DNA of 35,454 nt from Nitrospirota bacterium (GTDB lineage Bacteria > Nitrospirota > Nitrospiria > JACQBW01). The translations under genes and the position numbers were made by a program. Below are positions 13,008-28,635 of this stretch, one piece after another; the stretch's first letter is position 1, and every line of letters begins with the position of its first letter. The notes under the pieces were generated by a model. It made no database searches and had not been told where the DNA came from. It saw nothing but the letters and a program-made list of their open reading frames with translations. The stretch covers positions 1 to 35,454 of the forward strand of contig JACOTA010000073.1 of the NCBI GenBank assembly GCA_016178585.1, written 5' to 3'.

Positions 13008-13135
13008 GTCTACATGACCTACGCTGAAATACGATTTACCTTGATTTTATTCTTCAATGTCTCTATCATCAATCACCGGGTCTACTCTCAAAAACGCTGA
13101 ATTTCTCCTTTTCCCGTCTACATGGCGTCTACATG
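13008..13135. promoter_or_regulatory. Candidate integrase arm sites, left end (direct copies)
   Basis: The nonamer GTCTACATG occurs at 13008-13016, 13116-13124 and 13127-13135. The last two are 11 bp apart and together make the 20-mer GTCTACATGGCGTCTACATG (13116-13135). A degenerate copy, GTCTACTCT, is at 13080-13088. The same 20-mer recurs inverted before int and, with one mismatch, at the island's other end. This fits arm-type binding sites for the integrase N-terminal domain. Confidence 0.65.
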
Positions 13136-13242
13136 GAACGACCCAGTGAGCTTTTAACGATTTTTTCCAGAAAAATAACGATTTTTCTTAAATTAAGAAA
13201 CGTAAAACATCAATTGCGTCCTTTATTCATAGGGTTATTTCT

Positions 13243-13262
13243 CATGTAGACGCCATGTAGAC
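13243..13262 (-). promoter_or_regulatory. Candidate arm site/operator, inverted copy before int
   Basis: Two CATGTAGAC units (13243-13251 and 13254-13262) are the exact reverse complement of the 20-mer at 13116-13135. They end 3 bases before the integrase ribosome site (GGAGG) and 12 bases before its ATG, so bound integrase could repress its own gene. Confidence 0.65.
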
Positions 13263-13274
13263 CGGAGGAAAATA

Positions 13275-14462
13275 ATGCCGAAACTGACAAAAACAATTAT
13301 AGATTCAACCGATCCCCCAGAGCAAGGTCAAATCTTCGTGAGAGACGATCTTTTCGCCGGTTTCGCCCTCCGCGTGACCTCAGGAGGGTTCAAATCCTTC
13401 GTCTGGGAGGGAAAGATCAAAGGCCAAACAAAGCGGGTTACCCTGGGGCAATATGGTGTTTTGACCCTGGATCAGGCCAGAGCCAGGGCCTTTGAGACCA
13501 AAGCCCGGATTTTAAAAGGAGAGGATCCTGCAAGAGAGAAAAAAGAAAAGCATGGGGAAATTACTTTCAAAGACCTTTCGGAAAAATATCTAGAACAACA
13601 TGCGAAGATTTTTAAAAAGACCTGGGAAAAGGATAAATCCAGAATTGATAATCATCTTGAAAACTGGAAGGGGAGAAGGCTTTCAACTTTCTCACGGGAC
13701 GAAATTACGAAGCTCCATCAAAGAATAGGGGCTGACAATGGTAAATACGAGGCCAATAGAATTATCGATCTAATCCGGAAGATTTTTAATTGTGCTCTCG
13801 ACTGGGGAATGATGCCGGAAGGGTTAATGAATCCGGCCGTCAGGATCAAGAAATTCCCCGAAGAGAAAAGGGACCGCTTTTTAACTCCCGATGAAGTGAA
13901 GAAATTCATGGGAGCTTTAGAATTAGAGCCGGATGAATATTGGAGGGCATACTTTGCTCTATCACTTCTTACCGGAGCAAGAAGAAGTGAGCTTCTTTCC
14001 GCAAGGTGGGAAGATATTGATTTTAGTACTGCCATTTTGAGGATCCCGATGACTAAAGCCGGCCGGCCGCATCAGGTTCCCATACCAAAGGCCGCTTTAA
14101 AGATTTTGGAAGAGCTTCCAAGTTTGAAAAAATCAGAATGGCTTTTCCCAGGTCCTGGGAAAACCGGCCACTTAACCGAACCTAAATCAGCTTGGCGCAG
14201 GATTATCAAAAAGGCCGAATTACAAAAGGTCAGGATCCACGATTTAAGGCGGACACTTGGAAGCTGGTTGGCCGCGGAAGGAGCGAGCTTAATCTTGATC
14301 GGAAAGACCCTGAATCACTCCAATGTTTCAACTTCCGCAATTTACGCCAGATTAAATCAAGATCCCGTCCGGAAAGCCTTAGAGGCCAATTCTTTAAAAA
14401 TGTTAGGGATCAAGCCTAAAAAAAAGGCCAAGAAGAAACGAAGTCAAAAAGTTGACCGGTAA
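13275..14462 (+). CDS. int: P4-type tyrosine integrase of the island
   Basis: A 395-residue site-specific recombinase. The N-terminus is an arm-DNA-binding DUF4102-like domain (GFALRVTSGGFKSFVWEGK, KRVTLGQYGVLTLDQARARA, residues about 1-90). It is followed by a SAM-like core-binding domain (about 95-190) and the catalytic domain. The active-site set is complete: R236 (LTGARRSEL), K261, H322 and R325 (IHDLRRTLG), H348 (LNHSN) and Tyr357 (AIYARL). The C-terminus is very Lys-rich. A GGAGG ribosome site is 8 bases before the ATG. Its position beside the att repeat and the arm-site repeats says it moves this island into tRNA-Met. It appears functional. Confidence 0.95.
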   Translation: MPKLTKTIIDSTDPPEQGQIFVRDDLFAGFALRVTSGGFKSFVWEGKIKGQTKRVTLGQYGVLTLDQARARAFETKARILKGEDPAREKKEKHGEITFKDLSEKYLEQHAKIFKKTWEKDKSRIDNHLENWKGRRLSTFSRDEITKLHQRIGADNGKYEANRIIDLIRKIFNCALDWGMMPEGLMNPAVRIKKFPEEKRDRFLTPDEVKKFMGALELEPDEYWRAYFALSLLTGARRSELLSARWEDIDFSTAILRIPMTKAGRPHQVPIPKAALKILEELPSLKKSEWLFPGPGKTGHLTEPKSAWRRIIKKAELQKVRIHDLRRTLGSWLAAEGASLILIGKTLNHSNVSTSAIYARLNQDPVRKALEANSLKMLGIKPKKKAKKKRSQKVDR

Positions 14463-14483
14463 AATCGGTTAACATCTATTAAT

Positions 14484-14546
14484 TTCCAATCCCTCAGCCG
14501 TCTTTTTTTGTTTTAAAAGGTCGGTTCCGGTCGAAATGGCAGAAGT
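14484..14546 (+). repeat. Dispersed repeat, copy A part 1
   Basis: About 60 bases that recur at 15551-15610 with few changes: TTTCCAATCC, CAGCCG, TTTTAAAAGGTCGG and TCCGGTCGAAATGGCA are shared. In the second copy this block runs directly into another block (15611-15671) whose relative here lies about 730 bases away, after vapC (15275-15336). Confidence 0.7.
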
Positions 14547-14664
14547 CGAAAGCGGAGCATATCCGATCCTGACAACAGTAGTGGGCTGAAATAACCTTTA
14601 CTAAAAGTTTTGTGAATTTATTTCTAATTATGGTAAACTTTAAGATATCAAAAGGAGGTATGTT

Positions 14665-14886
14665 GTGGCGAACTCATCAATCAAAGAAGACCTGATCGCT
14701 CAGATTGACGGCTTACCTTTGGAACTCCAGCGTCGTCTCCTGAACTTCGCAAAATCCTTGACTCTTAAAGGGGTCGCTGGCGAGAGCCTTCTCCGGTTTG
14801 AAGGCGCCATTACCGTTGAAGATCTCCGACAGATGTCTAAGGCAATTGAAGAAGATTGTGAAAGAGTAGATGTAAGTGAGTGGTAG
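14665..14886 (+). CDS. vapB: VapB-like antitoxin (DUF2281-type)
   Basis: A 73-residue protein whose N-terminal half (LIAQIDGLPLELQRRLLNFA) matches the short helical DUF2281-type segment found in antitoxins paired with PIN toxins. The acidic C-terminus (EDLRQMSKAIEEDCERVDVSEW) would wrap the toxin. The GTG start at 14665 follows AAAGGAGG; an ATG at 14660 is out of frame. Its last 11 bases overlap the vapC start, so the two are translationally coupled. Such pairs usually repress their own promoter, but I saw no clear operator. Confidence 0.75.
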   Translation: MANSSIKEDLIAQIDGLPLELQRRLLNFAKSLTLKGVAGESLLRFEGAITVEDLRQMSKAIEEDCERVDVSEW

Positions 14887-15265
14887 ATATCTCCTCGATA
14901 CAAATATAATCATCGCTCTCTTTTCTGAAGACCCCAAAATTCACAAGCACATTACAAATCCCTTGGAAATTTTTATCCCGGCTATTGCTATTGGGGAGTT
15001 GTATTTTGGAGCATATAAGTCTGGGAGAATGAAAGAGAATCATGCCCGTATAGATGAATTTGCCCGAAGCTCTACAGTGCTTTCATGTGATACTGAAACA
15101 GCAAAAAGATATGGGGATATAAAAAATCGCTTGAAAGAAAAGGGCCGGCCGATCCCTGAAAACGACTTGTGGATTGCAGCCATTGCCCAGCAATATGACC
15201 TTACATTGGTTTCACGGGACACTCACTTCGATAACGTGGAGGAGTTACAGGTTGAAGTATGGTAG
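14876..15265 (+). CDS. vapC: VapC toxin, PIN-domain ribonuclease
   Basis: A 129-residue PIN domain, a Mg-dependent endoribonuclease that in known VapC toxins cuts tRNA or rRNA. The acidic active-site set is present: D8 (YLLDTNIIIALF), E41 (AIAIGELYFGA), D97 (ENDLWIAAIA) and D115 (LVSRDTHFDNV). The GTG start at 14876 overlaps vapB by 11 bases. The toxin is intact, so the pair may stabilise the island. It sits inside a repeat that appears to have been split by its arrival. Confidence 0.92.
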   Translation: MSGRYLLDTNIIIALFSEDPKIHKHITNPLEIFIPAIAIGELYFGAYKSGRMKENHARIDEFARSSTVLSCDTETAKRYGDIKNRLKEKGRPIPENDLWIAAIAQQYDLTLVSRDTHFDNVEELQVEVW

Positions 15266-15274
15266 CAAAAACTC

Positions 15275-15336
15275 TGTTTCCCCATTCCCACTTCCGGGAT
15301 TCAGTTCCCCTCTGATGTCGTTTCACCCTTCCTGGC
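15275..15336 (+). repeat. Dispersed repeat, copy A part 2
   Basis: This block (CCATTCCCAC, TTCCGGGATT, CTGATGTCG, TTCACCCTTCCT) matches the second half of the repeat at 15611-15671. The first half of the same composite repeat is at 14484-14546, on the other side of vapBC. The pair therefore looks like one repeat copy interrupted by a segment of about 730 bases carrying vapBC. Confidence 0.55.
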
Positions 15337-15337
15337 A

Positions 15338-15533
15338 AGAAGCCGCCTGACTTCCCCGTAACTTCCACGGTAACTTCCCCGGTTGTTCCAACCGAAACAC
15401 GGAAGGTCACGACTGCCGCGCCGGTAATTTCCTCAAACTCTGGAGGGCTGATGCCTGCCTCACGGCACATGGCGATCACCTTGTTTGTTCCGTGCCCCCA
15501 TTTTTCGATCAGGCCGGTGCGATGGACTATATT
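15338..15533 (-). pseudogene. C-terminal remnant of an AlbA_2/HATPase_c_4-type (RecG-like) regulator
   Basis: The minus-strand frame encodes VHRTGLIEKWGHGTNKVIAMC, REAGISPPEFEEITGAAVVT and FRVSVGTTGEVTVEVTGK. This matches the C-terminal ATPase-like part of the putative RecG-like transcriptional regulators common in mobile DNA, which have xGLIExWGxGTxKI and PPEFEE motifs followed by a winged-helix tail. The N-terminal few hundred residues and most of the winged helix are missing, and both ends run into repeat sequence. It is a relic with no start of its own. Confidence 0.7.
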
Positions 15534-15550
15534 AGATAATTTCTGAGATT

Positions 15551-15671
15551 TTTCCAATCCTCCAGCCGCCTTTTATTTTAAAAGGTCGGCTCCGGTCGAA
15601 ATGGCAAAAGCTTCGCTTTTCCATTACCACCTTCGGGATTGTGTTTCCCTCTGCTGTCGCTTCACCCTTCC
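15551..15671. repeat. Dispersed composite repeat, copy B
   Basis: This uninterrupted copy contains both blocks seen separately at 14484-14546 and 15275-15336. Its translation in one frame (CHFDRSRPFKIKGG) is typical of intergenic repeats that look open by chance. I therefore treat the overlapping minus-strand frame (15532-15807) as noncoding. Confidence 0.65.
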
Positions 15672-15713
15672 TTTGGAAAGGGAAACACTGCACCCTGTTC
15701 GGATTGATTAGAT

Positions 15714-15771
15714 CCGCCTTCGGGCGCTCATAAAGCCCTTTGGGCTTAAAGAGCGCTGGGACCGAAGGCGG
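15714..15771. repeat. 58-nt nested hairpin
   Basis: Three nested stems share one axis: CCGCCTTCGG (15714-15723) with CCGAAGGCGG (15762-15771), GCGCTC (15724-15729) with GAGCGC (15751-15756), and AAGCCC (15733-15738) with GGGCTT (15742-15747) around a TTT loop. Small internal loops (ATA/AAA, TGGGA) separate them. This could be a structured RNA or a cruciform-forming repeat end. Only GGTTTT follows, too weak for a standard terminator. Confidence 0.6.
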
Positions 15772-16366
15772 GGTTTTCCGCAAATAGAATTCCCTTTTTA
15801 ACATCACAAAGATAGAAGCGGGGTTTTTCTCTCACCCAACGCAATGGTTTTGCCGGTTTGGTACCACATTCTGTAATACAGAAGAGCGGATTTGAGGGTG
15901 ATTGAATTGTTTTCTCAAATATTTTTTGTAACACATTTTGTGTTACCGGTACGAATTTTTTAAAGTCCTTATCAACAGCCGGACAAATAAAAAAATGAAA
16001 TATTTCCTGTAATCGTGGATGAGCTCAAATTTAAATTGCATGTACCTTTCAATCGGCAATTCTTAGGCCATCCCAGTTTGACGGTTTAGAATCTGTAAAA
16101 TACCCTTAACATTTGAAAGCGCTAATTAATTTTCTCTCGGCACTAAAAGGAAGAAGGTCAATAAAGGTTAAGGAGACAATTGACAAGAAATGACTTGGTG
16201 GTAAATTTATATTCAACGAGAGACTTGGTGATAAAGAAAAGTTAATACGAAAACAAGGTTTTTGGGATTAAATGTTTTTAGGGTAATAAAAATATATTAA
16301 TTGGCAGGCTAATTTAAAAAATAACTTCTGGAAATTAGTAAACCCATATGGGCGCAGGCTGACATT
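15772..16366. other. Degraded AT-rich spacer with palindrome and tandem motif
   Basis: There is no convincing gene. A minus-strand frame (15746-15934, 62 codons, GTG start) has no recognisable domain and its start lies inside a palindrome. That palindrome is GTAACACA-TTT-TGTGTTAC (15928-15946), a possible operator. Closer to the next gene, GACTTGGTGGTAAA (16192-16205) is repeated as GACTTGGTGATAAA (16222-16235), 30 bp apart, and could be binding sites upstream of the methyltransferase pair. Confidence 0.45.
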
Positions 16367-17023
16367 ATGCGATACAAGGTAAAGGGCTTGGAAATTTGTT
16401 CGGAGAATGCGGCTAAGTCTATGGCACAGGCTTCAGCCGCTCTTACCAATTGGATTCTCACAAGACCTCCCGTTCGTCGCGCGCTGGACTACGGATGTGG
16501 CAAACTTCGATATGCACCGTACCTTGCGCGCCAGTGCTCCCAATTGGGACTGGTTGATTCAAATGTACAACTTGATCGCTCTCAGGTCATCGCTGGCCGC
16601 CGCACCACAGTCAAACGGTATGCCCAGAGACACTGGCCCTCTTGCAGAATTTACGCGATAGAGGAATTTTGGCATGGGATTGAGGAAAAGTACGATTTCG
16701 TACTTTGTTCAAACGTATTGTCTGCGATCCCTTCATACCACCTTCGGAACCGATCGCTTAAAGCCATCATGTCCTGCTTACGTCAGAAAGGAGAATGTCT
16801 TTTTGTGAATCAGTACACGAACTCGGAGTTTCACAAAGCGCGAAACCGTCCCGAAGCAATAGATCACCTCGATGGCTGGATTCTCGCGTCTCAAAAGAGT
16901 GCCAGCTACTATGGGATTTTGGACCGTGCGAAGACCATACGGATCCTTCGTGCAATCGGTTTCCGAATTCTTGAGGCATGGATAGACGGACAGTCTGCTT
17001 TCGTTTTGGTTGGATGTGGTTGA
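16367..17023 (+). CDS. Class I SAM-dependent methyltransferase, island cargo
   Basis: A 218-residue Rossmann-fold methyltransferase. Motif I is RRALDYGCGKLRYAPYL (residues 38-53, D41-x-G43-x-G45), D64 (LGLVDSN) is a candidate for the acidic residue that binds the SAM ribose, and motif IV is YDFVLCSNVLSAIP (109-122). LKAIMSCLRQKGECLFVNQY follows, and the C-terminus is ILRAIGFRILEAWIDGQSAFVLVG. The lack of NPPY or DPPY argues against an adenine or N4-cytosine DNA methyltransferase; the layout is of the small-molecule or lipid/RNA type. It has no ribosome site close to the ATG. Its stop and the next start are separated by 3 bases, so it forms a unit with the membrane protein. The substrate is unknown. 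Confidence 0.75.
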   Translation: MRYKVKGLEICSENAAKSMAQASAALTNWILTRPPVRRALDYGCGKLRYAPYLARQCSQLGLVDSNVQLDRSQVIAGRRTTVKRYAQRHWPSCRIYAIEEFWHGIEEKYDFVLCSNVLSAIPSYHLRNRSLKAIMSCLRQKGECLFVNQYTNSEFHKARNRPEAIDHLDGWILASQKSASYYGILDRAKTIRILRAIGFRILEAWIDGQSAFVLVGCG

Positions 17024-17026
17024 ATA

Positions 17027-17773
17027 ATGAAGCTCATCGGCCAGTCCGAAAGTTATTCTGAAATTCTTGAAAGAGTCTTCGTTACCACTCTCGCGGTTGG
17101 TTTTTTTTGCACCATTTTGCTGGCTAATGCTGATTCCACCTTTCACGACCTCCTGGAAACCATTTCAACCAAGGTAGATTTTGGTCCTCTAAAGGATATT
17201 AAGGTGCTGTATGTTGTGGTCCCCCTTGTTCTTGCCGGTATATCCCGCCTTATCCTTCTACACGATAAGATTTCAAATATTCTTGGGCTTCGTAAAAGAT
17301 TTGATACGAATCATATCCTTTTCCCCATGGCGGATCAAAGTGGGTACACACTAACGGACGCCTTCAAACAACGGTTGACCGCAAATCGTAAAGAAGCGAT
17401 GAGTGATATTTTCTATCGATATGCCAGCTTTATCAATCCTGTCATCGACCGTCAACTCGTCCGCACTGCGGCCGACAATTGGGGCTGGCTCTGGTCAGCA
17501 GTCGAAGCCAGCTTCGTTTGCCTTGTGACACTAAGTATTCTTACGCTACTGGAAATATGGAGTTACGCTATGATGCTCGGAGGATCCATTTGTATACTAA
17601 TAGGTTTTATCTTCTTCCAGTGGTTCCAGTGTCGGAAGGGTGCTGTGCGCCAGGTGAGAGTAATCATGGAAGATTCTGACCGCAAGCAAGCTATTCACAG
17701 CTATTTTACTAAATTTGCCGCTTCTGTTACTCTAGACAAACCTGAATCCCCCGGACCGCTGTCCAAAAGGTGA
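17027..17773 (+). CDS. Four-TM membrane protein coupled to the methyltransferase
   Basis: A 248-residue protein I do not recognise. Hydrophobic segments lie at about 16-34, 57-78, 156-176 and 180-200. They enclose a soluble loop of about 75 residues (80-155) with RYASFINPVIDRQLVRTAAD, and a soluble charged tail (201-248). The odd Trp-rich NWGWLWSAVEASF begins the third helix. The start ATG is 3 bases after the methyltransferase stop (TGAATAATG), implying coupled translation. Paired enzyme and small multi-TM protein genes on islands are often defence or toxin units; that reading is inference only. Confidence 0.65.
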   Translation: MKLIGQSESYSEILERVFVTTLAVGFFCTILLANADSTFHDLLETISTKVDFGPLKDIKVLYVVVPLVLAGISRLILLHDKISNILGLRKRFDTNHILFPMADQSGYTLTDAFKQRLTANRKEAMSDIFYRYASFINPVIDRQLVRTAADNWGWLWSAVEASFVCLVTLSILTLLEIWSYAMMLGGSICILIGFIFFQWFQCRKGAVRQVRVIMEDSDRKQAIHSYFTKFAASVTLDKPESPGPLSKR

Positions 17774-18058
17774 TCTTCCCCCGAAAAAAATGAAGGAGTC
17801 CCCACAAAATAGCATTCTTCCCTCTTTTCTTTTTGCCCTTGTTCCCAATATGTTTTCTGACCTTAACAAAATAGACATCATTAATTTGAAGTAATAACTT
17901 TACTTAATGGGGGTCGAATCTTTATTCTTTAAAAATAAATTATTTCTCAGAGCACAGAGGCGGTAGTTATGCCGCCGCAAAAGCGGAAATATTTTTGTGA
18001 CCACCACAAATAACCCTACTTCTTGATATTTTGTAAATGCTCGGGAGAAGAAGATTAG
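17774..18058. other. Intergenic region before the HNH gene
   Basis: AT-rich noncoding DNA with one short hairpin, GGCGG-TAGTTATG-CCGCC (about 17960-17977). The HNH gene ribosome site GGGAGAAG lies near its end. No further gene is seen. Confidence 0.4.
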
Positions 18059-19138
18059 ATGAGTGAGACTGTAATAAAACAAGCGGACGGTTCTTATGTC
18101 GACGACACAGGTAAAGTTATTTATTTCTCAACTGAGCGTTTCATCAACGAAATAGCCTTAGGGCAAAACTGCTTTATCTGCGGAGCCCATCCGGGCTCAA
18201 AAGCTTTCAATGATGAACATATTCTTTCTGACTGGATACTCAGGAAGTACAGCCTTGTAAATCGCAAAATAACACTTCCAAATGGCACTCAATTTAAATA
18301 CGGATCGTACCGCATCCCATGTTGTAAAGAATGCAACTCAAATATGGGAGATATTTTTGAAAACAAAATTAGCCCTGCAAGTGTCGATTTAAAGTCTTTC
18401 TCTCAACTGGTGAATAGCCATGGTAGCCAATATATTTTTTGCTGGTTATCTTTAATTTTTATAAAGACTCACTTAAAGGATGCAATTCTTCCTTTAGAAC
18501 AAGATCGCAGAAAAGGTACGGCCAATATCGGGGAGAGCTTTTATGCTTACGAAACTCTTCATCACATTCATTGCATATCTCGAAGTTTTTACACCGATGC
18601 CAATTGGGAAAATTGGGTGCTTGGCTCCTTATTGATCGGTCCCGCAAAAATTATGGACGGAGTAGAATCATTTGATTTTGCAGACGACTACAACGCAAAA
18701 TCTGTAATGCTTCGATTGAGTGATTTCTTTATTATTGCAGTATTTGATGATGCTGGTGCGGTCTTTACAAAAATCAATGAAACTTTCATTTCAAAAATAA
18801 ATGACGGTTTAACAGCTCTGCAAATACGAGAGCTATTTGCACGCTTCTGCTATCACTCTATAGCTTTAACTGAAAAGCCAAAGTTTTCATCTTCTTTTGA
18901 AGATGGGAAATACTTAATTACTGCATCACTTCCGGGCGACAAACCCGTTTTTAAGAATTTGGGGGCCGATTTTTTTGGAAAAACAATGTATCACCACTGT
19001 AAGAAGGTTCTTGATTTTCTCGACGGTTTTTCTGATTCAGAAAAAGAGAAAATTCTAAGTGGAAATGCCACTTATCTTCTCGATGAAAATGGAAACTTCA
19101 AAACCGATTCGATGATTTACAAACCCAAGATCTCATAG
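18059..19138 (+). CDS. HNH-type nuclease-like protein, island cargo
   Basis: A 359-residue protein with an HNH/treble-clef arrangement in its first 100 residues: C38-x2-C41 (CFICGAHPG), H54 in NDEHILSDWIL, then C89-x2-C92-N93 (CCKECNSNMGDIFE). These are the zinc-binding cysteines, the general-base histidine and the Asn of CxxC-EHI-CxxCN endonucleases. The remaining ~250 residues have no domain I recognise and presumably sense or bind something. No methyltransferase of the DNA type is beside it, so it is not an ordinary restriction pair. The ATG follows GGGAGAAG. Strand and position suggest an independent cargo gene. Confidence 0.75.
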   Translation: MSETVIKQADGSYVDDTGKVIYFSTERFINEIALGQNCFICGAHPGSKAFNDEHILSDWILRKYSLVNRKITLPNGTQFKYGSYRIPCCKECNSNMGDIFENKISPASVDLKSFSQLVNSHGSQYIFCWLSLIFIKTHLKDAILPLEQDRRKGTANIGESFYAYETLHHIHCISRSFYTDANWENWVLGSLLIGPAKIMDGVESFDFADDYNAKSVMLRLSDFFIIAVFDDAGAVFTKINETFISKINDGLTALQIRELFARFCYHSIALTEKPKFSSSFEDGKYLITASLPGDKPVFKNLGADFFGKTMYHHCKKVLDFLDGFSDSEKEKILSGNATYLLDENGNFKTDSMIYKPKIS

Positions 19139-19267
19139 TACTGAAGCGAGAGCTCCGAATGAACTGATGGGACTGACATGAAAAGTAGTATAGGTGCGGA
19201 TTAATTTTTTATTCCTCACGTTTTTGGTTTTCAAATCTTACGGAATCATAGATTCAAGCAACATTCG

Positions 19268-19444
19268 CTATTCCTCCTCGTGGCCAGCAAAGAACTCCTT
19301 GAATGCCTGATCATCTTCCAAAGCGATGATTTGATCAATTTTTTTATCACCATAAACCAGATAAAGATTATAACTGTATATTTCATGAGTGAGAGTTACA
19401 TAAGACTGGTCGTTTTCCCAGATAATTGTGGAATTGGGGTTCAT
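19268..19444 (-). CDS. Small hypothetical protein, 58 residues
   Basis: Minus-strand frame MNPNSTIIWENDQSYVTLTH ... IYSYNLYLVYGDKKIDQIIA and ending in FKEFFAGHEEE. The composition is protein-like, rich in aromatic and acidic residues. A stop lies three codons before the ATG, so this is the only start; the ribosome site is weak. I know no family. It is the last gene before the right arm site and converges on the HNH gene, which is where some islands keep an excisionase, but it is not basic and shows no helix-turn-helix. Confidence 0.5.
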   Translation of the reverse strand: MNPNSTIIWENDQSYVTLTHEIYSYNLYLVYGDKKIDQIIALEDDQAFKEFFAGHEEE

Positions 19445-19498
19445 AAATCCGAGTCACCGCCGTTATATTCTGCAAAATGGCGTGATTTTGGCCCGTGG

Positions 19499-19518
19499 GT
19501 CTACATGGCGTTTACATG
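19499..19518 (+). promoter_or_regulatory. Candidate integrase arm site, right end
   Basis: GTCTACATGGCGTTTACATG matches the left-end 20-mer at 19 of 20 positions and keeps the 11-bp spacing of its two nonamers. It lies 61 bp inside the right att repeat. Having the same motif at both ends beside att sites is the main reason to read it as an integrase arm site. Confidence 0.65.
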
Positions 19519-19579
19519 AAGGAAATAGAAATATCTGGCGATAAAGACGATATGATTTAACTACTTGTTTTATTTGATA

Positions 19580-19630
19580 AAAATTGATAGCGGCGGACGG
19601 GATCGAACCGCCGACCCAGTGATTATGATT
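19580..19630 (-). repeat. attR: 51-bp direct repeat within intact tRNA-Met
   Basis: Identical to 12935-12985. It starts 8 bases past the tRNA 3' end and reaches the last base of the 5' anticodon stem. This copy, presumably brought by the island, completes the tRNA gene. Confidence 0.93.
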
Positions 19631-19660
19631 CACTTGCTCTACCGACTGAGCTACGCCGCC
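19588..19660 (-). tRNA. tRNA-Met (CAT), elongator type
   Basis: The 73-nt gene folds fully: acceptor GGCGGCG/CGCCGCT (with a G-U first pair), D stem GCTC/GAGC, anticodon stem AGTGA/TCACT with loop ATCATAA (anticodon CAT), and T stem GGCGG/CCGTC with TTCGATC loop. The discriminator is A and CCA is not encoded. The anticodon stem lacks the GGG/CCC of initiator tRNA, and the variable region GGGTC resembles elongator tRNA-Met. A tRNA-Ile with lysidine-modified CAT cannot be fully excluded. A promoter is upstream at 19687-19715. Confidence 0.93.
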
Positions 19661-19715: not shown

Positions 19716-19811
19716 TGCCTTAAATGCCCTTGCCCGCCCCCGGTTTTTTAAAATAGCCGTTTTTTCAGGCCAGGGGAGGGAGTTTCCGTTTTTTCATCTT
19801 GATCTGTAAAA

Positions 19812-19833
19812 TTTACACCGATTTTACACCCAT
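19812..19833 (+). promoter_or_regulatory. Candidate Pho box 1
   Basis: Two direct 11-mers, TTTACACCGAT and TTTACACCCAT, sit head to tail. The 11-bp period and TTTACA-N5-TTTACA form resemble PhoB/PhoP sites. It precedes the broken transposase gene. Confidence 0.55.
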
Positions 19834-19919
19834 AAGATTATTTTGAAATAAAGCGAGCGTAAATTCCTTTCATGATGATTTAGCTTTACGGTAGGAAAAT
19901 AAAATAAGGAGAAGAATCG

Positions 19920-20160
19920 ATGGAAGTTGAAAAAGATCTTCTTAAAATCAGATTGGATTTACTCAATCTGGCGAAAGAGATCAAGAATGTTTCAGAAGCG
20001 TGCCGCATCATGGGAATTTCGCGCCAGCATTATTATAGTCTCTTTAAGGCCTATCAGGAAAAAGGTTTGAGGGACTAAAAGAGAAGAATCGTCGAAAGCC
20101 TAATTTAAAAAACCGTGTCGCTCCAAGAATTGAAGAACGAGTGATTTCAAGTTTTTTTGA
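19920..20160 (+). pseudogene. IS481-like transposase N-terminal remnant, frameshifted
   Basis: The first frame, from ATG 19920 to TAA 20078, encodes 52 residues with a helix-turn-helix (LLNLAKEIKNVSEACRIMGI and SRQHYYSLFKAYQEKG). A -1 shift near 20072 continues the family sequence (GLKEKNRRKPNLKNRVAPRI and EERVIS) to about 20160. This matches the start of IS481-type transposases; the DDE catalytic core is absent. A good ribosome site (AAGGAGAA) precedes the ATG, so the short HTH peptide could still be made. Pho-box-like repeats lie on both sides. Confidence 0.75.
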
Positions 20161-20161
20161 T

Positions 20162-20183
20162 TTTACACCGAATTTACAGCTTA
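20162..20183 (+). promoter_or_regulatory. Candidate Pho box 2
   Basis: TTTACA at 20162 and again at 20173 (11-bp period), as TTTACACCGAA then TTTACAGCTTA. A CAATAA that may serve as -10 lies about 10 bases downstream. It precedes the TPR gene at 20262. Confidence 0.55.
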
Positions 20184-20261
20184 TTGACGCATTCAATAAA
20201 AAGAATAGGTATTATTGGAGGCAGACTATAAAATATAAAAAAATAAAAGGAGAACAAAGAC

Positions 20262-20744
20262 GTGAAAGCAGCCATTTATGAAAAGAGTGAGAAGTCGAAT
20301 ATGAACCCTGCCGGCCGGGCGGAACACCTGAGTAATCTCGGGAGGATTTATTTTTCAATGGAAATCTATGATAAAGCGGAGTCTTTTTATCTGGAAGCCC
20401 TTGAATTGCTTAGAGAGTCTCTGGAGAAGAATCATCCGAACATCGGAGTGACTTTAAATAACCTTGGTGGTTTATATTATCTTCAAGGACACTCTGACCG
20501 GGCCGCGGCTCTTTATGAACAGGCCATTGCAATTTATGAAAAAACCCTTGAACTTGACCATCCCTACCTGGCGATTTTGCTTAACAACCTTGCCGAAGTG
20601 TATAAGGTTCGGGGTCGGTACAGGGAAGCGCAGGTTCTTTACAATAGGGCCCTGACTATTCTGGAGAAAATTGCCGGGGAGGAGAACCCATATATCGAAA
20701 TGACACTACCCGCCCGGCTGAATGTGTTCCCTTCGATGATCTAA
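20262..20744 (+). CDS. Short TPR protein (kinesin light chain-type repeats)
   Basis: A 160-residue protein made almost entirely of TPR repeats of about 42 residues (RAEHLSNLGRIYFSMEIYDK, GVTLNNLGGLYYLQGHSDRA, AILLNNLAEVYKVRGRYREA). TPRs are protein-interaction scaffolds. It has no signal peptide or membrane segment. The GTG start is supported by AAAAGGAGAA 8 bases upstream. The end (IEMTLPARLNVFPSMI) leaves the repeat pattern abruptly, so the gene may be a shortened form of a longer TPR protein. The Pho-box-like repeat upstream and the porin/pstS genes downstream suggest phosphate-dependent expression; its role is unknown. Confidence 0.75.
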   Translation: MKAAIYEKSEKSNMNPAGRAEHLSNLGRIYFSMEIYDKAESFYLEALELLRESLEKNHPNIGVTLNNLGGLYYLQGHSDRAAALYEQAIAIYEKTLELDHPYLAILLNNLAEVYKVRGRYREAQVLYNRALTILEKIAGEENPYIEMTLPARLNVFPSMI

Positions 20745-20756
20745 AATGAGAGCTAA

Positions 20757-20778
20757 TTTACACGGATTTTACAACCCT
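20757..20778 (+). promoter_or_regulatory. Candidate Pho box 3 (porin-pstS promoter)
   Basis: TTTACACGGAT followed by TTTACAACCCT, an 11-bp direct repeat. TTTAAT (20790-20795) lies 11 bases downstream in the position of a -10 element for a PhoB-dependent promoter. The porin ATG is at 20898. Confidence 0.6.
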
Positions 20779-20897
20779 GAGATCAGGCGTTTAATTTACA
20801 AGTCTATATTACCGGGAATTAAAATTTATTCACTCAAAATCTCTGTTACTTTGTGGCAGATTGTTTATCATTAACAAATTATTATTCAGGAGGTTAA

Positions 20898-21974
20898 ATG
20901 AAAGGTTCATTCTTTAAATATTTTTTTGTTTTTGTGATGGTCTATGTATCCCAATTTATGATGGCTCCTCAGGTAAAAGCGATTGAGCTCGATAAGGGGT
21001 TAAGCATTGAAGGAACCGGTTTTGTTGATTTCACCGCGGTTTCGGGAGATTCCTATAAGAGCGGAACCTATGGTAGTAAGATAATTACTCCTACACAGGC
21101 AGATGGTAAAGTTGGCACAGACAATGGTTTCCATTTTACCCGTGCTTACATTACAGCAAAACAAAAGATAAATGACGATTTGATGGTACGGTTTACCTAT
21201 GACGAAAAAGACGGTTACACTGGAAGGGCGTTTGTAAAATATGTTTACGGTGATTACAGCTATATGCCGGGACAAAAAGTGAGATTTGGTCTCGGACATA
21301 CCCCCTGGATCGATTTTGAAGAAGGATTGTATCCTTATCGCTTTTTAGGACAAGTCTTCAGCGACTTTCAAGGAGCTCAGTCTTCGTCCGATACTGGAGT
21401 GAGCCTGATCGGATCTTTCATGGATAAAATGCTCGATTATCATATTGGCGTATACGAAGGTGAAGGTTATTCAAGCACCACGCCAGATGGGCAGGGTTTT
21501 GCCTATGCAGGGAGAGTCTCTTTCAATATGGAAGGATTGACAGTCGCTGTTTTTGATTGGATGGAGACCAAGAGAAATGGAACCGCTGACTATAATCCTA
21601 GCCGGTTGATCGGTATGGTGACTTACGGAACGCCGATGTTTAGAGTCGCAGGCCAATATTTAGCCGCGGATGACAACAAAACGACCGCAAACGCCAACCC
21701 TAAATTCAACAAAGGAAACGGATATAGCGTCTGGGCCTATACCCGGATTCCTGGAATGGATGTTCTTCGGGTGATGGCAAGATATGACTCCATGAAACCG
21801 GATACTGATGTGGATTTAAATTCAAATACTCTGGCAAGAATTGCGGTCAGTTATGATTTAAGCAAATCGGTCGTCATTGCTCTGGATGAAACGATTAAAA
21901 CTACAAAAGTCGACAATACCGGTGGCAGCACGACCGATAATTTATTGGGGATCAAAGCTCAAGTGGCGTTTTAA
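20898..21974 (+). CDS. Outer-membrane porin, probably phosphate-related
   Basis: A 358-residue protein with a signal peptide (residues 1-28, ending APQVKA) and a body of alternating aromatic/polar beta strands (FHFTRAYITAKQKINDDLMV, RFTYDEKDGYTGRAFVKYVY, VRFGLGHTPWIDFEEGLYPY). It ends in a strand closing with Phe (LLGIKAQVAF), the signal used by the Bam complex. It has no domain other than the barrel. The pstS gene follows after 45 bases on the same strand, and a Pho-box-like repeat precedes it, so phosphate or polyphosphate uptake is likely, by analogy with OprO/OprP and PhoE; the substrate is inferred from context only. Confidence 0.85.
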   Translation: MKGSFFKYFFVFVMVYVSQFMMAPQVKAIELDKGLSIEGTGFVDFTAVSGDSYKSGTYGSKIITPTQADGKVGTDNGFHFTRAYITAKQKINDDLMVRFTYDEKDGYTGRAFVKYVYGDYSYMPGQKVRFGLGHTPWIDFEEGLYPYRFLGQVFSDFQGAQSSSDTGVSLIGSFMDKMLDYHIGVYEGEGYSSTTPDGQGFAYAGRVSFNMEGLTVAVFDWMETKRNGTADYNPSRLIGMVTYGTPMFRVAGQYLAADDNKTTANANPKFNKGNGYSVWAYTRIPGMDVLRVMARYDSMKPDTDVDLNSNTLARIAVSYDLSKSVVIALDETIKTTKVDNTGGSTTDNLLGIKAQVAF

Positions 21975-22019: not shown

Positions 22020-23054
22020 ATGAACTTCAAATTAACATTAACATCATTATTAATAGGGTTAGGTCTGGTTATAGGAGGAGTCACCTCCTCCCATGCCGCA
22101 GACGCATTACTCATCAACGGGGCGGGAGCGACTTTTCCCTATCCCATTTATTCCAAATGGTTTGATGAATTCGGGAAAAAACATCCTGAGCTTCATTTTA
22201 ACTATCAATCGGTCGGGAGCGGCGCCGGAATCCGACAGGTTGGTGAAATGACGGTTGATTTTGGAGCCACCGACGGGCCGATGACCGATGACCAGCTCAA
22301 GGCGAGCAAACAAAAGCTCCTTCATTTTCCTACCGTGTTGGGAGCCGACGTTCCGACTTACAATATTCCTGAAGTGAGCGCCGAATTAAACTTTACCGGA
22401 GAGGTTCTGGCCAATATTTTCCTTGGCAAGGTGACCAAGTGGAACGATTCTGCAATTGCCGGGGCAAACCCGGGAGTGAATCTTCCTGATAAAGAGATCA
22501 TGGTGATCCATCGTTCAGACGGTTCCGGAACTACCTATATCTGGACCGATTTTTTGTCCAAAGTCAGCCCGGAATGGGATCAAAAAGTGGGTAAAGGGAC
22601 CTCGGTGAACTGGCCGGTGGGTTTGGGAGGCAAAGGAAACGAAGGGGTCAGTGGATTGATCAAACAGACTCCCTATTCAATCGGTTATGTGGAACTGATT
22701 TATGCCGTTCAGAACCATCTCAGTTATGGCAAGATCCAGAATAAGGAAGGTCATTTTATTAAAGCCACTTTAGAGACAGTGAGTGAAGCGGCGGCAGGGG
22801 CCTTAAAGACCATGCCGGAAGATTTTCGGGTTTCCATTACGAATCCTCCGGGAAAGGGGGTTTATCCCGCTTCAAGCTTTACTTGGCTTTTAATCCCCGA
22901 AGAGATTAAAGACCTGAAAAAAAGGAAAGCCATTGTCGAATTTTTAAAATGGATGATCCATGACGGGCAGGCCTATACCAAAGATCTTGCTTACGCACCT
23001 CTTCCGAAGGAAGTGGTCCAGAAGGAAGAGCGCGCTATTTCGAAGATCAAATAG
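22020..23054 (+). CDS. pstS: Phosphate ABC transporter substrate-binding protein
   Basis: The periplasmic phosphate-binding protein that delivers phosphate to PstCAB. The 344-residue precursor has a signal peptide (about 1-26, SSHA). The mature start LLINGAGATFPYPIYSKWFD is typical of PstS, as are YQSVGSGAGIRQ, VDFGATDGPM, IMVIHRSDGSGTTYIWTDFL and KGNEGVSGLIKQTPYSIGYV, which hold the phosphate ligands. A ribosome site AAGAAAGG precedes the ATG. It is cotranscribed with the porin and ends at a strong terminator. Confidence 0.96.
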   Translation: MNFKLTLTSLLIGLGLVIGGVTSSHAADALLINGAGATFPYPIYSKWFDEFGKKHPELHFNYQSVGSGAGIRQVGEMTVDFGATDGPMTDDQLKASKQKLLHFPTVLGADVPTYNIPEVSAELNFTGEVLANIFLGKVTKWNDSAIAGANPGVNLPDKEIMVIHRSDGSGTTYIWTDFLSKVSPEWDQKVGKGTSVNWPVGLGGKGNEGVSGLIKQTPYSIGYVELIYAVQNHLSYGKIQNKEGHFIKATLETVSEAAAGALKTMPEDFRVSITNPPGKGVYPASSFTWLLIPEEIKDLKKRKAIVEFLKWMIHDGQAYTKDLAYAPLPKEVVQKEERAISKIK

Positions 23055-24573: not shown

Positions 24574-25400
24574 TGAAGGAGCAAGCGTGACACGAAATTA
24601 ATTCCAAGGATCAACAGGAGAAGCACCAGGGCCGCTGTCCATGCAAGTTGATGCCATTCCTCATAAGGTGAAATGGCATAAGTATAAATCATTACCGGGA
24701 GAGAGGCAACCGGTTCAAGGATAGTTTGATTCCAGTACATGTTTCCAAAAGCGGTAAACAACAGAGGAGCCGTTTCGCCGGCAACACGGGCCAGACCCAA
24801 TAAAACTCCTGTCATAATCCCCCTGCCGGCTGTCGGGACGACCACGAAACAGATCATTTTCCATTCCGGCACCCCGAGGGCAAGGGCGGCTTCGCGGATC
24901 GACGCGGGGACCAGTTTTAAGACTTCTTCCGTATTTCTGATCGTAATGGGGATCAGAATAAATGCGAGCGCCACTCCGCCGGATAAGGCCGAAAAATGGC
25001 CCATCGGGAGAACAATCAGGATATAGGCAAAGATACCGACCACGATCGAAGGAAGGGCGTTAAGGAGGTCGGAGGCATACCGGACCATGAACCCGATCAG
25101 GTTTTTCTGCCCATATTCCGAAAGGTAAAGGCCGCCGATTAAACCGAGGGGAATGCCAATCAGGCCGGTCAGGCCAAGAAGTTTAAGGGTTCCGACAACG
25201 GCGTGGGCCATCCCCCCCCCGGATTCTCCCACCGGTTTGGGGAGTTGGGTAAAGAAGTTGAGATGCAAACCAGGCAGGCCATGGACCACGATATAACTTA
25301 AAATAAAACATAGAACCGAAAGGATTAAAAGGGTGCATAGACCGGTCAGAAAGAGCATAAAGGTGTTGACGATTTTTCGTCTTAACGCCAGGGGGATCAT
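24555..25400 (-). CDS. pstA: Phosphate ABC transporter permease PstA
   Basis: One of the two membrane subunits of the phosphate importer. The 281 residues include six predicted membrane segments, the [20 protein letters not shown] cytoplasmic coupling loop that contacts PstB, and [17 protein letters not shown], diagnostic of PstA. The ATG and the pstC stop share one base (25400). It is embedded in pstC-pstA-pstB-phoU with overlaps throughout, implying coupled translation. Confidence 0.96.
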
Positions 25401-26359
25401 CAGGTTCGTCCTTCGACTTTTGAGGTAACCCTGTAAACCAGGATACGGGCAAGTGCGTGGATCAGGATAGTCACCCCAAATAGAATTAAGCCGATTTCGA
25501 TTAAAGACTGGATATACAAATCTGAAGTCGCTTCGGAAAATTCGTTGGCGATAATGGCGGTCATGGAATAGGAGGGCTCAAACAGAGAAAGTTTGATGTC
25601 GGGCCGGTTTCCAATCACCATGGTGACGGCCATTGTTTCTCCTAATGCGCGGGCGAGGGCAAGAAAAACAGAACCGAAAATTCCGGAGCGGGCATAGGGA
25701 ATGACCGCAATCCGGATCATCTCCCACCGGGTTGCACCCAGGGATAAAATAGCTTCCCGCTGAGTGTTTGGAACAGAGAGGAGAATCTCACGGGATACCG
25801 ATATAATAAAAGGAAGGATCATGATAGCCAGTAAAATCCCCGCGGTCAGCATCCCCACCCCGTAAGGGGTTCCCTGAAAAAAAGGGAGAAATCCTAACAT
25901 CTGTTTGAGAAAAGGTTCTCCGCTGTTTCGCATCAGGGGAACCAGAACAAATATTCCGATCAATCCATAAATGACGCTTGGAATAGCGGCTAAAAGTTCG
26001 ACCAGAAGGCTAATCGGGTTTGCCACCCACGGTGAAACCAATTCTGAGAGAAAAATCGCCATTCCAAGACCGACCGGGACCGCGATCAGGAGAGCCAGGA
26101 AAGAGGTGACCAGGGTTCCGTATAAAAAGGGGAGCGCTCCAAAGACCTCTCCCACCGGATCCCAGGTGGTTTTCCAGAGGAAAGACCATCCAAATTTTTC
26201 AATCGGGAGCCTCGAATGAAGAAAAAGCTCCCATGCGAGCAGAAGGGTAAGCCCCACAATAGACAGAGCCACCAGTAACACCCCCTTACGGAAGAGCCAG
26301 TCCATCTGCCTATTTTTAATCGGAAAAAGCCTTGATTTATTTGGGGTTTCTGTTTTCAA
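25400..26359 (-). CDS. pstC: Phosphate ABC transporter permease PstC
   Basis: The partner permease of PstA, 319 residues with six membrane segments. The first TM (about 29-49) is followed by a periplasmic stretch (SRLPIEKFGWSFLWKTTWDP). The coupling loop is REAILSLGATRWEMIRIAVI, and ALARALGETMAVTMVIGN is the PstC hallmark. It begins 91 bases after the phoR stop; a Pho-box-like half site on the minus strand (26445-26435) precedes it, so the transporter genes may have their own promoter in addition to read-through from phoBR. Confidence 0.96.
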   Translation of the reverse strand: MKTETPNKSRLFPIKNRQMDWLFRKGVLLVALSIVGLTLLLAWELFLHSRLPIEKFGWSFLWKTTWDPVGEVFGALPFLYGTLVTSFLALLIAVPVGLGMAIFLSELVSPWVANPISLLVELLAAIPSVIYGLIGIFVLVPLMRNSGEPFLKQMLGFLPFFQGTPYGVGMLTAGILLAIMILPFIISVSREILLSVPNTQREAILSLGATRWEMIRIAVIPYARSGIFGSVFLALARALGETMAVTMVIGNRPDIKLSLFEPSYSMTAIIANEFSEATSDLYIQSLIEIGLILFGVTILIHALARILVYRVTSKVEGRT

Positions 26360-26434
26360 ATTTTTGACTGGAAAAAGGTCATAAATAATGAATAATAACC
26401 CTGATGGGTCAATTCGAGATCAATTTCAGATCAC

Positions 26435-26445
26435 ATCCGTGTAAA
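26435..26445 (-). promoter_or_regulatory. Possible Pho box half-site before pstC
   Basis: The minus-strand 11-mer TTTACACGGAT is identical to the first unit of Pho box 3. The neighbouring 11-mers (TCATAAAAAAG upstream, GTGATCTGAAA downstream) match poorly, so this is a weaker candidate. It lies just beyond the phoR stop and 76 bases before pstC. Confidence 0.35.
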
Positions 26446-26450
26446 CTTTT

Positions 26451-27893
26451 TTATGAATTGACATCAGGGGAGGAGAAAACGGGAAAAACCGCTGTAAAAG
26501 TCGTTCCTCTATTGATCTGGCTTTCAACTTTTATGAAACCTCCGTGGGCTTCCATAATATGTTTAACAATGGAGAGTCCCAGGCCAGTGCCCCCCATTTC
26601 CCTCGACCGGGCTCTATCAACTCTGTAAAAACGCTCGAAAATTCGATCAAGATCGGCAGGGGGAATCCCTATGCCGGTGTCCTTCACAAAAAGTTCAATT
26701 TGCCCTTCCTGTTTCAGGTATCCGGCCACAATTTTTCCTGAAGCCGGGGTATATTTAATGGCATTATCAATCAGGTTGGTTAAAAGACGGGAAAGTTTTT
26801 CAGAGTCGGCCTCCAGGGAAACCTCTTCGCCGGCCTCGACTTCAATTGTCTGATTTTTCTTCGCGGCGAGCGGAGAGAGCGCCTGAACGGTTTTGAGTAA
26901 AAAGGGTTTTAAAGGAATCGTGGAAAGTTGGAGTTTTTCTTTCCCCGATTCTATTTTGGCCAGTTGAAGAAGATCAGAGACGATATTTTCCATTCCCTGG
27001 GTATGTTTCAGGAGAATGGCCAGAAATTTTTGGCCTTCATCCGGAACCCCCGGTTCCATATCCTGCAGGGCCTCAAGATACCCTTTAATCGAGGTAAGAG
27101 GCGTTCTCAGTTCGTGAGACACATTGGCCACAAAATCTTTCCGGATTCTTTCCAGCCGTTTGATATCGGTGATTTCGTGAAAAACCAGGACAATGTAAAT
27201 CTCCCCTTCATAATTTTCTACGGAGGCGACAGACGCCTGTACCTGGAAAAAAGTCTCCTTCTGGCCTGTAAAACTGATTTCAAAAGAGAGGTTTTGCCGG
27301 GTTGAAAGAATTTCCCGGACAAATTCATTTAATTCCCGGTGTCTCAGGAGCTCATAATAATAGATTCCCTCCGGCAGGAAACGAGCGAGTGAAAACATCC
27401 GCCTTAATGCGGGGTTGACCAGGAGAACTTTTCCTTTGCCGTTTAATATAATGATCCCTTCGATCATTCCATTTAGAATGGCCGATAGTTTTGCCCGGTC
27501 TTCTGAAATCTCCTTCCACCCCGGAGCCAGTTTTCCGACCATTTCATTAAAACCTCTCCCCAATTCCTCAAAATCGTCTGAATCCTGGAGATGGACCCTG
27601 AAACTAAAGTCCCCCTTTCCGACTCTGAGGAGTCCCTGTCTCAGGACGTTAAGGGAAGCCGTTAGATGTCTGGAAAAAAAGAACCCGATAGGGATTGAAA
27701 TCGCAACGGCTGAGAAAAAAATCAGGAGGAGAAGCTGATCATTTTCCAAATGCGAAAACGGGGCTCCAAAAAATCTTCCGCCGAGAAGGATGACAAACAG
27801 AATGGAAAGAGAGATGAGGAGAAATGATCCGGTCAGCCATTTTCTGAAAATACCGTTTTGAAATTTTTTTAAAGGTCCGGGTTCATTCGTCAT
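26451..27893 (-). CDS. phoR: Phosphate-regulon sensor histidine kinase PhoR
   Basis: It phosphorylates PhoB under phosphate limitation. The 480 residues show TM1 (about 20-41), a periplasmic stretch of only about a dozen residues, TM2 (54-74), a HAMP-like linker, a PAS domain (about 130-245), HisKA with H260 (VANVSHELRTPLTSIKGYLE), then the ATPase with NLIDNAIKYTP, VKDTGIGIPPADLDRIFERF and MGGTGLGLSIVKH. The tiny periplasmic loop fits sensing through PstCAB/PhoU and the PAS domain, not a periplasmic ligand. Its start overlaps phoB by 11 bases. Confidence 0.93.
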   Translation of the reverse strand: MTNEPGPLKKFQNGIFRKWLTGSFLLISLSILFVILLGGRFFGAPFSHLENDQLLLLIFFSAVAISIPIGFFFSRHLTASLNVLRQGLLRVGKGDFSFRVHLQDSDDFEELGRGFNEMVGKLAPGWKEISEDRAKLSAILNGMIEGIIILNGKGKVLLVNPALRRMFSLARFLPEGIYYYELLRHRELNEFVREILSTRQNLSFEISFTGQKETFFQVQASVASVENYEGEIYIVLVFHEITDIKRLERIRKDFVANVSHELRTPLTSIKGYLEALQDMEPGVPDEGQKFLAILLKHTQGMENIVSDLLQLAKIESGKEKLQLSTIPLKPFLLKTVQALSPLAAKKNQTIEVEAGEEVSLEADSEKLSRLLTNLIDNAIKYTPASGKIVAGYLKQEGQIELFVKDTGIGIPPADLDRIFERFYRVDRARSREMGGTGLGLSIVKHIMEAHGGFIKVESQINRGTTFTAVFPVFSSPDVNS

Positions 27894-28566
27894 CTTTTAT
27901 TTTGTAGCCGAGGGACTTTACGGTGACAATCGCCTCAGAGAGGAGAGGGATTTTTTCGCGGATTCTTCCGATATGAACATCGACGGTTCGGGTGGTTCCA
28001 AAATAATCGTATCCCCAGACCTGGTTTAAAAGGGAATCTCTGGTTTGAACCCGCCCCCTGTTCTTCAGGAGAATTTCAAGAAGACCGAATTCTTTTGAGG
28101 TTAAAGAAACCTCCTCATGATTGACCCGCACTTCATGACGGAGCGGATCAAGGGTCAGGGAACCGTATTTGAGTGCGGCAGCCGGTTCGGAGGGGTTGGT
28201 CCGGCGAAGAAGGGCCTTGACCCGTGCCACCATTTCTCTCGGTGAAAAGGGTTTGGTCAGATAATCATCGGCTCCGAACTCCAGGCCGAGGATTTTATCA
28301 ACCTCTTCCCCTTTGGCAGTTAACATGAGGACCGGGAGCGTTCTGGTTTCAGGTCTTTCTCTGATCTTTTTACAGATTTCAAGGCCGTCCATTCCCGGAA
28401 GCATGAGATCGAGGATCAAGAGATTGGGCTTCAGCCTTAAAACCTCCGAAAGCCCTCTGGCCCCGTCTGAAATGTGGATGACCCTGAATCCTTCTTTTTC
28501 AAGGTAAAGCTTGATTAAATGGGCGATATCGGGTTCATCTTCAATGGTGAGAATGTGCTGGGGCAT
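27883..28566 (-). CDS. phoB: Phosphate-regulon response regulator PhoB
   Basis: An OmpR-family transcription factor that would bind the TTTACA repeats described here. The receiver domain contains IEDEPD, the phospho-acceptor Asp in LLILDLMLPGMDGLE (D53 with this start), LMLTAKGEE and DDYLTKPFSPREMVARVKAL. The winged helix ends with LLNQVWGYDYFGTTRTVDVH and RIREKI, close to E. coli PhoB. I chose the ATG at 28566, giving the usual MxxxILTIEDE start; an in-frame TTG at 28587 would add seven residues. It is divergent from ald. Confidence 0.94.
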   Translation of the reverse strand: MPQHILTIEDEPDIAHLIKLYLEKEGFRVIHISDGARGLSEVLRLKPNLLILDLMLPGMDGLEICKKIRERPETRTLPVLMLTAKGEEVDKILGLEFGADDYLTKPFSPREMVARVKALLRRTNPSEPAAALKYGSLTLDPLRHEVRVNHEEVSLTSKEFGLLEILLKNRGRVQTRDSLLNQVWGYDYFGTTRTVDVHIGRIREKIPLLSEAIVTVKSLGYKIKDDE

Positions 28567-28635
28567 AGCGGTCTTATTATCCTTCAAATGCTATTGCCTG
28601 TAAAGAAGTAAATCCATGGTCTTCTCTGATATTTG

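Follow-up and report, generated by a model that had tools for sequence, protein, structure and literature searches.

Candidate Pho boxes with TTTACA-type half-sites in the phosphate locus of a Nitrospirota bacterium

TTTACA repeats in the phosphate locus

The phosphate locus of this Nitrospirota bacterium carries three closely spaced direct repeats of the form TTTACA-N5-TTTACA, which the initial annotation took for Pho boxes with an uncommon half-site. Are these repeats indeed parts of phosphate-starvation promoters and, if so, how are such promoters laid out and which regulator reads them? Within the window (the whole 35,454-nucleotide stretch of DNA analysed), the three copies were confirmed to be exact, at positions 19812-19828, 20162-20178 and 20757-20773, all on the forward strand; the number expected in the window is 0 (100 dinucleotide shuffles). 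The complete genome of 2,448,663 bases contains four forward matches and no reverse one; three of them fall within 962 bases and the fourth lies at C18:92893. When a looser 19-mer was searched in the whole genome, the three sites matched without mismatch and the next best place had two. The 11-mer TTTACACGGAT, which is the first unit of the third site, recurs on the reverse strand before pstC (26445-26435), as had been noticed initially. A copy of TTTACACCGAT at 18588 was rejected as most likely due to chance; it is located within an ORF and lacks the second unit.

On the forward strand, a tRNA-Met gene (19588-19660, reverse orientation) is followed by box 1, a 52-aa HTH ORF, box 2, a 160-aa ORF with TPR repeats (20262-20744), box 3, a presumed outer-membrane porin without Pfam or NCBIfam match (20898-21974) and pstS (22020-23054; TIGR00975 above cut-off). 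The opposite strand encodes a PhoB-type response regulator (27883-28587), whose best match is TIGR02154 (243 bits versus a cut-off of 296), and a PhoR-type histidine kinase (26451-27893) with HAMP, PAS, HisKA and HATPase domains scoring below the NCBIfam cut-offs. A fourth box begins just past the phoR stop codon and precedes pstC (25400-26359), the first gene of a pstC-pstA-pstB-phoU series extending down to 23114. In this locus pstS lacks a dedicated box and starts about 45 bp past the porin gene, so box 3 probably drives both. The statement that each repeat lies upstream of a gene of the phosphate locus holds by position only: behind site 1 comes a truncated HTH fragment of IS481 type, and behind site 2 the TPR ORF.

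A matrix scan of the genome had been suggested in the initial annotation. We used a sequence-only model of 40 positions (R1), trained on eight sites from G001, G002 and G006, which represent three other genera, and on none from the present genome. In the 2.45-Mb genome, box 2 (23.0 bits), the pstC box (18.0), box 1 (17.3) and box 3 (15.3) occupied ranks 1 to 4, followed by a match of 11.7 bits inside an ORF. Computational support for Pho boxes is thus good, and we consider it highly probable that all these sites function as PhoB-dependent promoters of the phosphate-starvation response. Genome-wide, the boxes are enriched in promoters of phosphate genes. As the scan scored 150 of 365 first-look candidates, weak additional sites of the regulon may be missed; as predicted by this model, the recognisable regulon of this genome is local, comprising boxes 1-4 and their targets, namely a broken IS481-transposase fragment (box 1), the TPR gene (box 2), porin-pstS (box 3) and pstCAB-phoU (box 4).

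Layout of the array and its predicted -10

The box had originally been described as a pair of units. The direct repeats with their 11-bp period stand, and the array proves to have four units, the two TTTACA hexamers representing its upstream, strong half. The units follow in the order TTWACA, TTWACA, a TTGATN-like unit and a weak GTAACA-like unit. Box 1 (19812-19850, +) reads TTTACACCGAT / TTTACACCCAT / AAGATTATTTT / GAAATA and is followed, 9 bp past the fourth unit, by a predicted -10 TAAATT (19860-19865, +). Box 2 (20162-20200, +), with TTTACACCGAA / TTTACAGCTTA / TTGACGCATTC / AATAAA, has its predicted -10 TATTAT at 20210-20215 (+), and box 3 (20757-20795, +), with TTTACACGGAT / TTTACAACCCT / GAGATCAGGCG / TTTAAT, is followed by a predicted TATATT at 20805-20810 (+). 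The pstC box (26407-26445, -) consists of TTTACACGGAT / GTGATCTGAAA / TTGATCTCGAA / TTGACC, with a predicted TATTAT at 26392-26397 (-); all four hexamers lie at the common TANNNT offset. Units 3 and 4 are weak in boxes 1 and 3.

This offset, 48 bases from the first base of unit 1, corresponds to 9 bp past the fourth hexamer and falls outside the 40 positions of the model. TANNNT was found there in 20/30 sites of the class, and no other offset comes close: all four window sites have it, as do 10 of the 11 family sites and 10 of the 19 other class sites. None of 20,000 shuffles equalled the count for the family, bearing in mind that family sites share descent and hence are not fully independent, and that contigs may be incomplete. 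From its position 9 bp past unit 4, TANNNT is likely to be the -10 of these promoters. The TTTAAT at 20790, initially proposed as the -10 of site 3 at a distance of 11 bp, begins 16 bp past the second TTTACA (a distance of 11 bp results only if counting starts where the 22-bp pair ends) and constitutes the fourth unit of the array. Hexamers at this 16-bp distance (TTTAAT, TATAAA) were dropped as -10 candidates, TANNNT at offset 48 being the sole position-specific signal.

The same hexamers would be expected if the second TTTACA were an ordinary sigma-70 -35 element, with a -10 (TTTAAT, TATAAA or AATAAA) 16 bp on, an incidental upstream TTTACA and constitutive expression. TTTACA is indeed one base from TTGACA, and AT-rich hexamers occur 16 bp past the second unit in several sites, TATAAA being found twice in G002. 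However, position specificity is highest for TANNNT at offset 48 and not at 33; pstC boxes and other families have GTGATC, GTAACG or TTAACA as their second unit, which would make poor -35 elements, while the period-11 array is kept; and genome-wide matches cluster at phosphate genes. Constitutive sigma-70 promoters are therefore very unlikely. The sites possess at least two direct-repeat units with an 11-bp period and a fixed spacing to a TAN3T -10. The half-site of the E. coli consensus box (CTGTCAT) was not found: the units are TTTACA, GTGATC and TTGATC here and of the GTAACA type in relatives.

Boxes across the class and the putative regulator

Genomes from two further genera of the family, G001 and G002, and from several other families contain the same pst genes. 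Boxes precede an HTH ORF, phoB, the porin gene, pstS and pstC in G002, and the porin gene and pstC in G001, so that the pstC box is kept in both, as is the porin gene before pstS. In other families, a box is found before pstS. Units of distant families read TTAAC(A/G) or GTAAC(A/G), making the four-unit array obvious, e.g. upstream of pstS in G025 (TTAACACGGAT GTAACGTAAGC GTAACATTGAA GTAACC).

A wider model (R2, 17 sites) was scanned over 58 genomes of the class. Outside its training sites, it recovered boxes before a phoB-type regulator gene in G012, pstS-type genes in G005, G012 and G041, a polyphosphate kinase gene (ppk) in G006, a PhoX-type phosphatase gene in G042 (nearly identical promoters also occur in G046 and G050), genes for phosphate-type porins in G004, G027 and G050, and genes for small zinc-ribbon proteins in G011 and G050. 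Two matches had no obvious phosphate role, preceding genes for an oxidoreductase-like protein (G006) and a mannose-1-phosphate guanylyltransferase-like protein (G050). The zinc-ribbon-like proteins (L142 and L149 in G011 and G050) are about 100-109 aa long, possess CxxC pairs and are encoded directly behind Pho boxes in two families; they are possibly a new member of the Pho regulon.

This distribution also bears on the question of whether the repeats have any regulatory role. Three near-identical cores within 1 kb, in a rearranged region with a 61-bp dispersed repeat just upstream of site 1, could in principle represent amplified junk, i.e. a dispersed repeat or a duplicated promoter. Against this, the three window sites resemble each other only within the box, their flanks aligning weakly, and in other families the box is kept before non-homologous genes, including unrelated phosphate genes. 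We consider amplification of this kind extremely improbable. The genome ranks and the position of the relatives' matches at phosphate genes support the interpretation of the repeats as Pho boxes with an uncommon half-site.

Most likely, the boxes are recognised by the PhoB that the cell itself encodes. Its gene and that of PhoR lie beside the pst genes, and PhoB is the best-scoring family, with a score below the curated cut-off. Several OmpR/PhoB-family regulators bind 11-bp direct repeats, for instance M. tuberculosis PhoP, with a 7-bp motif and a 4-bp spacer (PMC4832192); this, and the score of the local protein under the PhoB equivalog cut-off, would favour another member of the family as the one that binds the sites. 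However, phoBR is directly upstream of the pstC box, the PhoB family TIGR02154 is the best match of the local regulator, the box also precedes the phoB-type gene itself in G002 and G012, and the targets are phosphate genes across families. Binding by a regulator other than the PhoB encoded here accordingly appears remote. Upstream of 28587, the box before phoB that an autoregulated phoBR would have is not visible within the window; one is present before phoB in G002 and before the phoB-type gene in G012.

In the mechanism proposed for the PhoB reading, molecules of the phosphorylated product of 27883-28587 would line up in a head-to-tail row on the four tandem 11-bp units, of which the upstream pair is strong and of the TTWACA type and the other pair weaker. 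This row would replace the -35 element and recruit RNA polymerase to the TANNNT -10 situated 9 bp past the fourth unit. Binding by the local PhoB, induction at low phosphate and the transcription starts are all predicted on this basis. The PhoB-type protein retains the RTVDVHI core of the E. coli PhoB recognition helix; G replaces the first R of HIRRLR, and the wing reads TVKSLGY versus TVRGTGY in E. coli. These changes may cause the altered half-site.

Known Pho boxes and the history of the locus

Pho boxes have been reviewed as 11-bp direct repeats whose letters depend on the species (PMC4415409), the E. coli consensus being CTGTCAT (PMC3465305, PMC4415409). As in E. coli phoA and pstS, the window sites have tandem 11-bp units (four in pstS) and a TAN3T-type -10. 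In E. coli K-12, phoA and pstS have a -10 that starts 15 bp downstream of the G in their final GTCA, or, in the CTGTCA register, 6 bp after the 22-bp pair. The predicted -10 of the window sites starts 15 bp downstream of the first base of unit 4, the same distance as in E. coli if GTCATA is aligned with GTAACA. The perfect agreement is in part a matter of choice, since this register was picked after the spacing was seen and the other one differs by 2 bp. Since E. coli phoB and phoE do not match the simple GT[CA]A-11-TANNNT pattern, the spacing comparison rests on phoA and pstS. An apparent half-turn shift relative to E. coli vanished once GTCATA and GTAACA half-sites were aligned. Unlike in E. 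coli, the half-site is GTAACA/TTTACA rather than GTCATA, and the strong units lie upstream and the weak ones beside the -10.

Bacillus subtilis PhoP boxes are TTAACA-type repeats, and the initial annotation had placed the window sites closer to these than to E. coli boxes. They do share TTWACA-like direct repeats at about 11 bp; among NCBIfam families, the host regulator scores best with the PhoB model. The letters are not especially Bacillus-like, because GTAACA aligns with E. coli GTCATA at 4/6 positions and then gives exactly the E. coli -10 spacing. Cyanobacterial SphR boxes consist of at least three tandem CTTAACCT repeats with a 3-bp linker, i.e. of period 11 (PMC1906773); they share the tandem arrangement, TTAAC core and period, but have C rather than A after TTAAC. 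For Desulfovibrio vulgaris PhoB, the portion of the source consulted states a (c/t)GT(n)AC box, a 6-bp repeat with a 4-bp spacer, which fits the GTAAC half-sites in units 2-4 of relatives; that portion makes no mention of TTTACA units (PMC3333781).

A similar layout was encountered among 77 pstS upstream regions, mostly from Acidobacteriota, of which 47 have two clear units. These promoters (L031-L110) possess a four-unit box ending GTAACA-N9-[TC]ANA[AC][TC]; a -10-like hexamer occurs at +15 in 21/47 and in at most one at any other offset. The four 11-bp units, the terminal GTAACA and the -10-like hexamer at +15 are common to both sets, whereas the first units are TTCAYN/GTAACY instead of TTTACA. 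Our literature searches on Nitrospira/Nitrospirota or Acidobacteria Pho boxes found no consensus and no publication on the four-unit box of Acidobacteriota pstS. The kind of box is well known and fits the known series, with no new mechanism; what seems undescribed is the lettering of this variant and how exactly it is laid out in the class. The comparisons suggest that unit period and -10 distance are kept across distant bacteria while half-site letters drift. They provide a consensus and an exact promoter geometry for phosphate regulons of this class and, by the same layout, of Acidobacteriota; the Pho regulons of mostly uncultured bacteria thereby become predictable from sequence.

Boxes 1 and 2 appear to have their own histories. 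Box 2, together with roughly 75-95 following bases, can be aligned to the promoter of the porin gene in G001 (78% identity; z about 24), where the TPR ORF is absent at this place; the TPR ORF and box 3 therefore occupy the spot where G001 has the porin directly. Box 2 is orthologous to that promoter and represents the old, ancestral porin promoter, now ahead of the TPR gene. The 52-aa HTH_28 ORF behind box 1 (19920-20078, +) is an N-terminal fragment of an IS481-type transposase. IS481 homology resumes in another frame at 20069-20161, ending one base before box 2; residues 2-53 of a G002 protein are matched in the first frame and residues 52-82 in the second. The ORF is most likely a dead gene, a probable pseudogene, and box 1 may therefore now serve nothing. 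The G002 relative (L021:5190-5692) is intact; its 136 aa match NCBIfam IS481, correspond to the N-terminal half of the transposase (the DNA-binding part only), and are encoded behind a Pho box of their own, directly before phoB. It is conceivable, though unlikely, that the Pho regulon acquired a DNA-binding protein from a transposase, the window keeping a decayed copy behind box 1; if so, the G002 protein could serve as an additional regulator that responds to phosphate.

A 61-bp dispersed repeat (19729-19789) immediately precedes box 1 and has six more copies of 90-95% identity on other contigs of the genome. The region 13117-19660 is likely a genomic island. It contains a P4-type tyrosine integrase gene (13275-14462; Arm-DNA-bind_3), preceded by inverted copies of TCTACATGGCGTCTACA at 13117 and 13245, with a variant copy (19500) beside tRNA-Met; the same motif occurs near the porin and tRNA genes of G001. 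A 359-aa ORF of the island (18059-19138) has no Pfam match and displays an N-terminal CxxC, a later CxxC and an HNH-type look.
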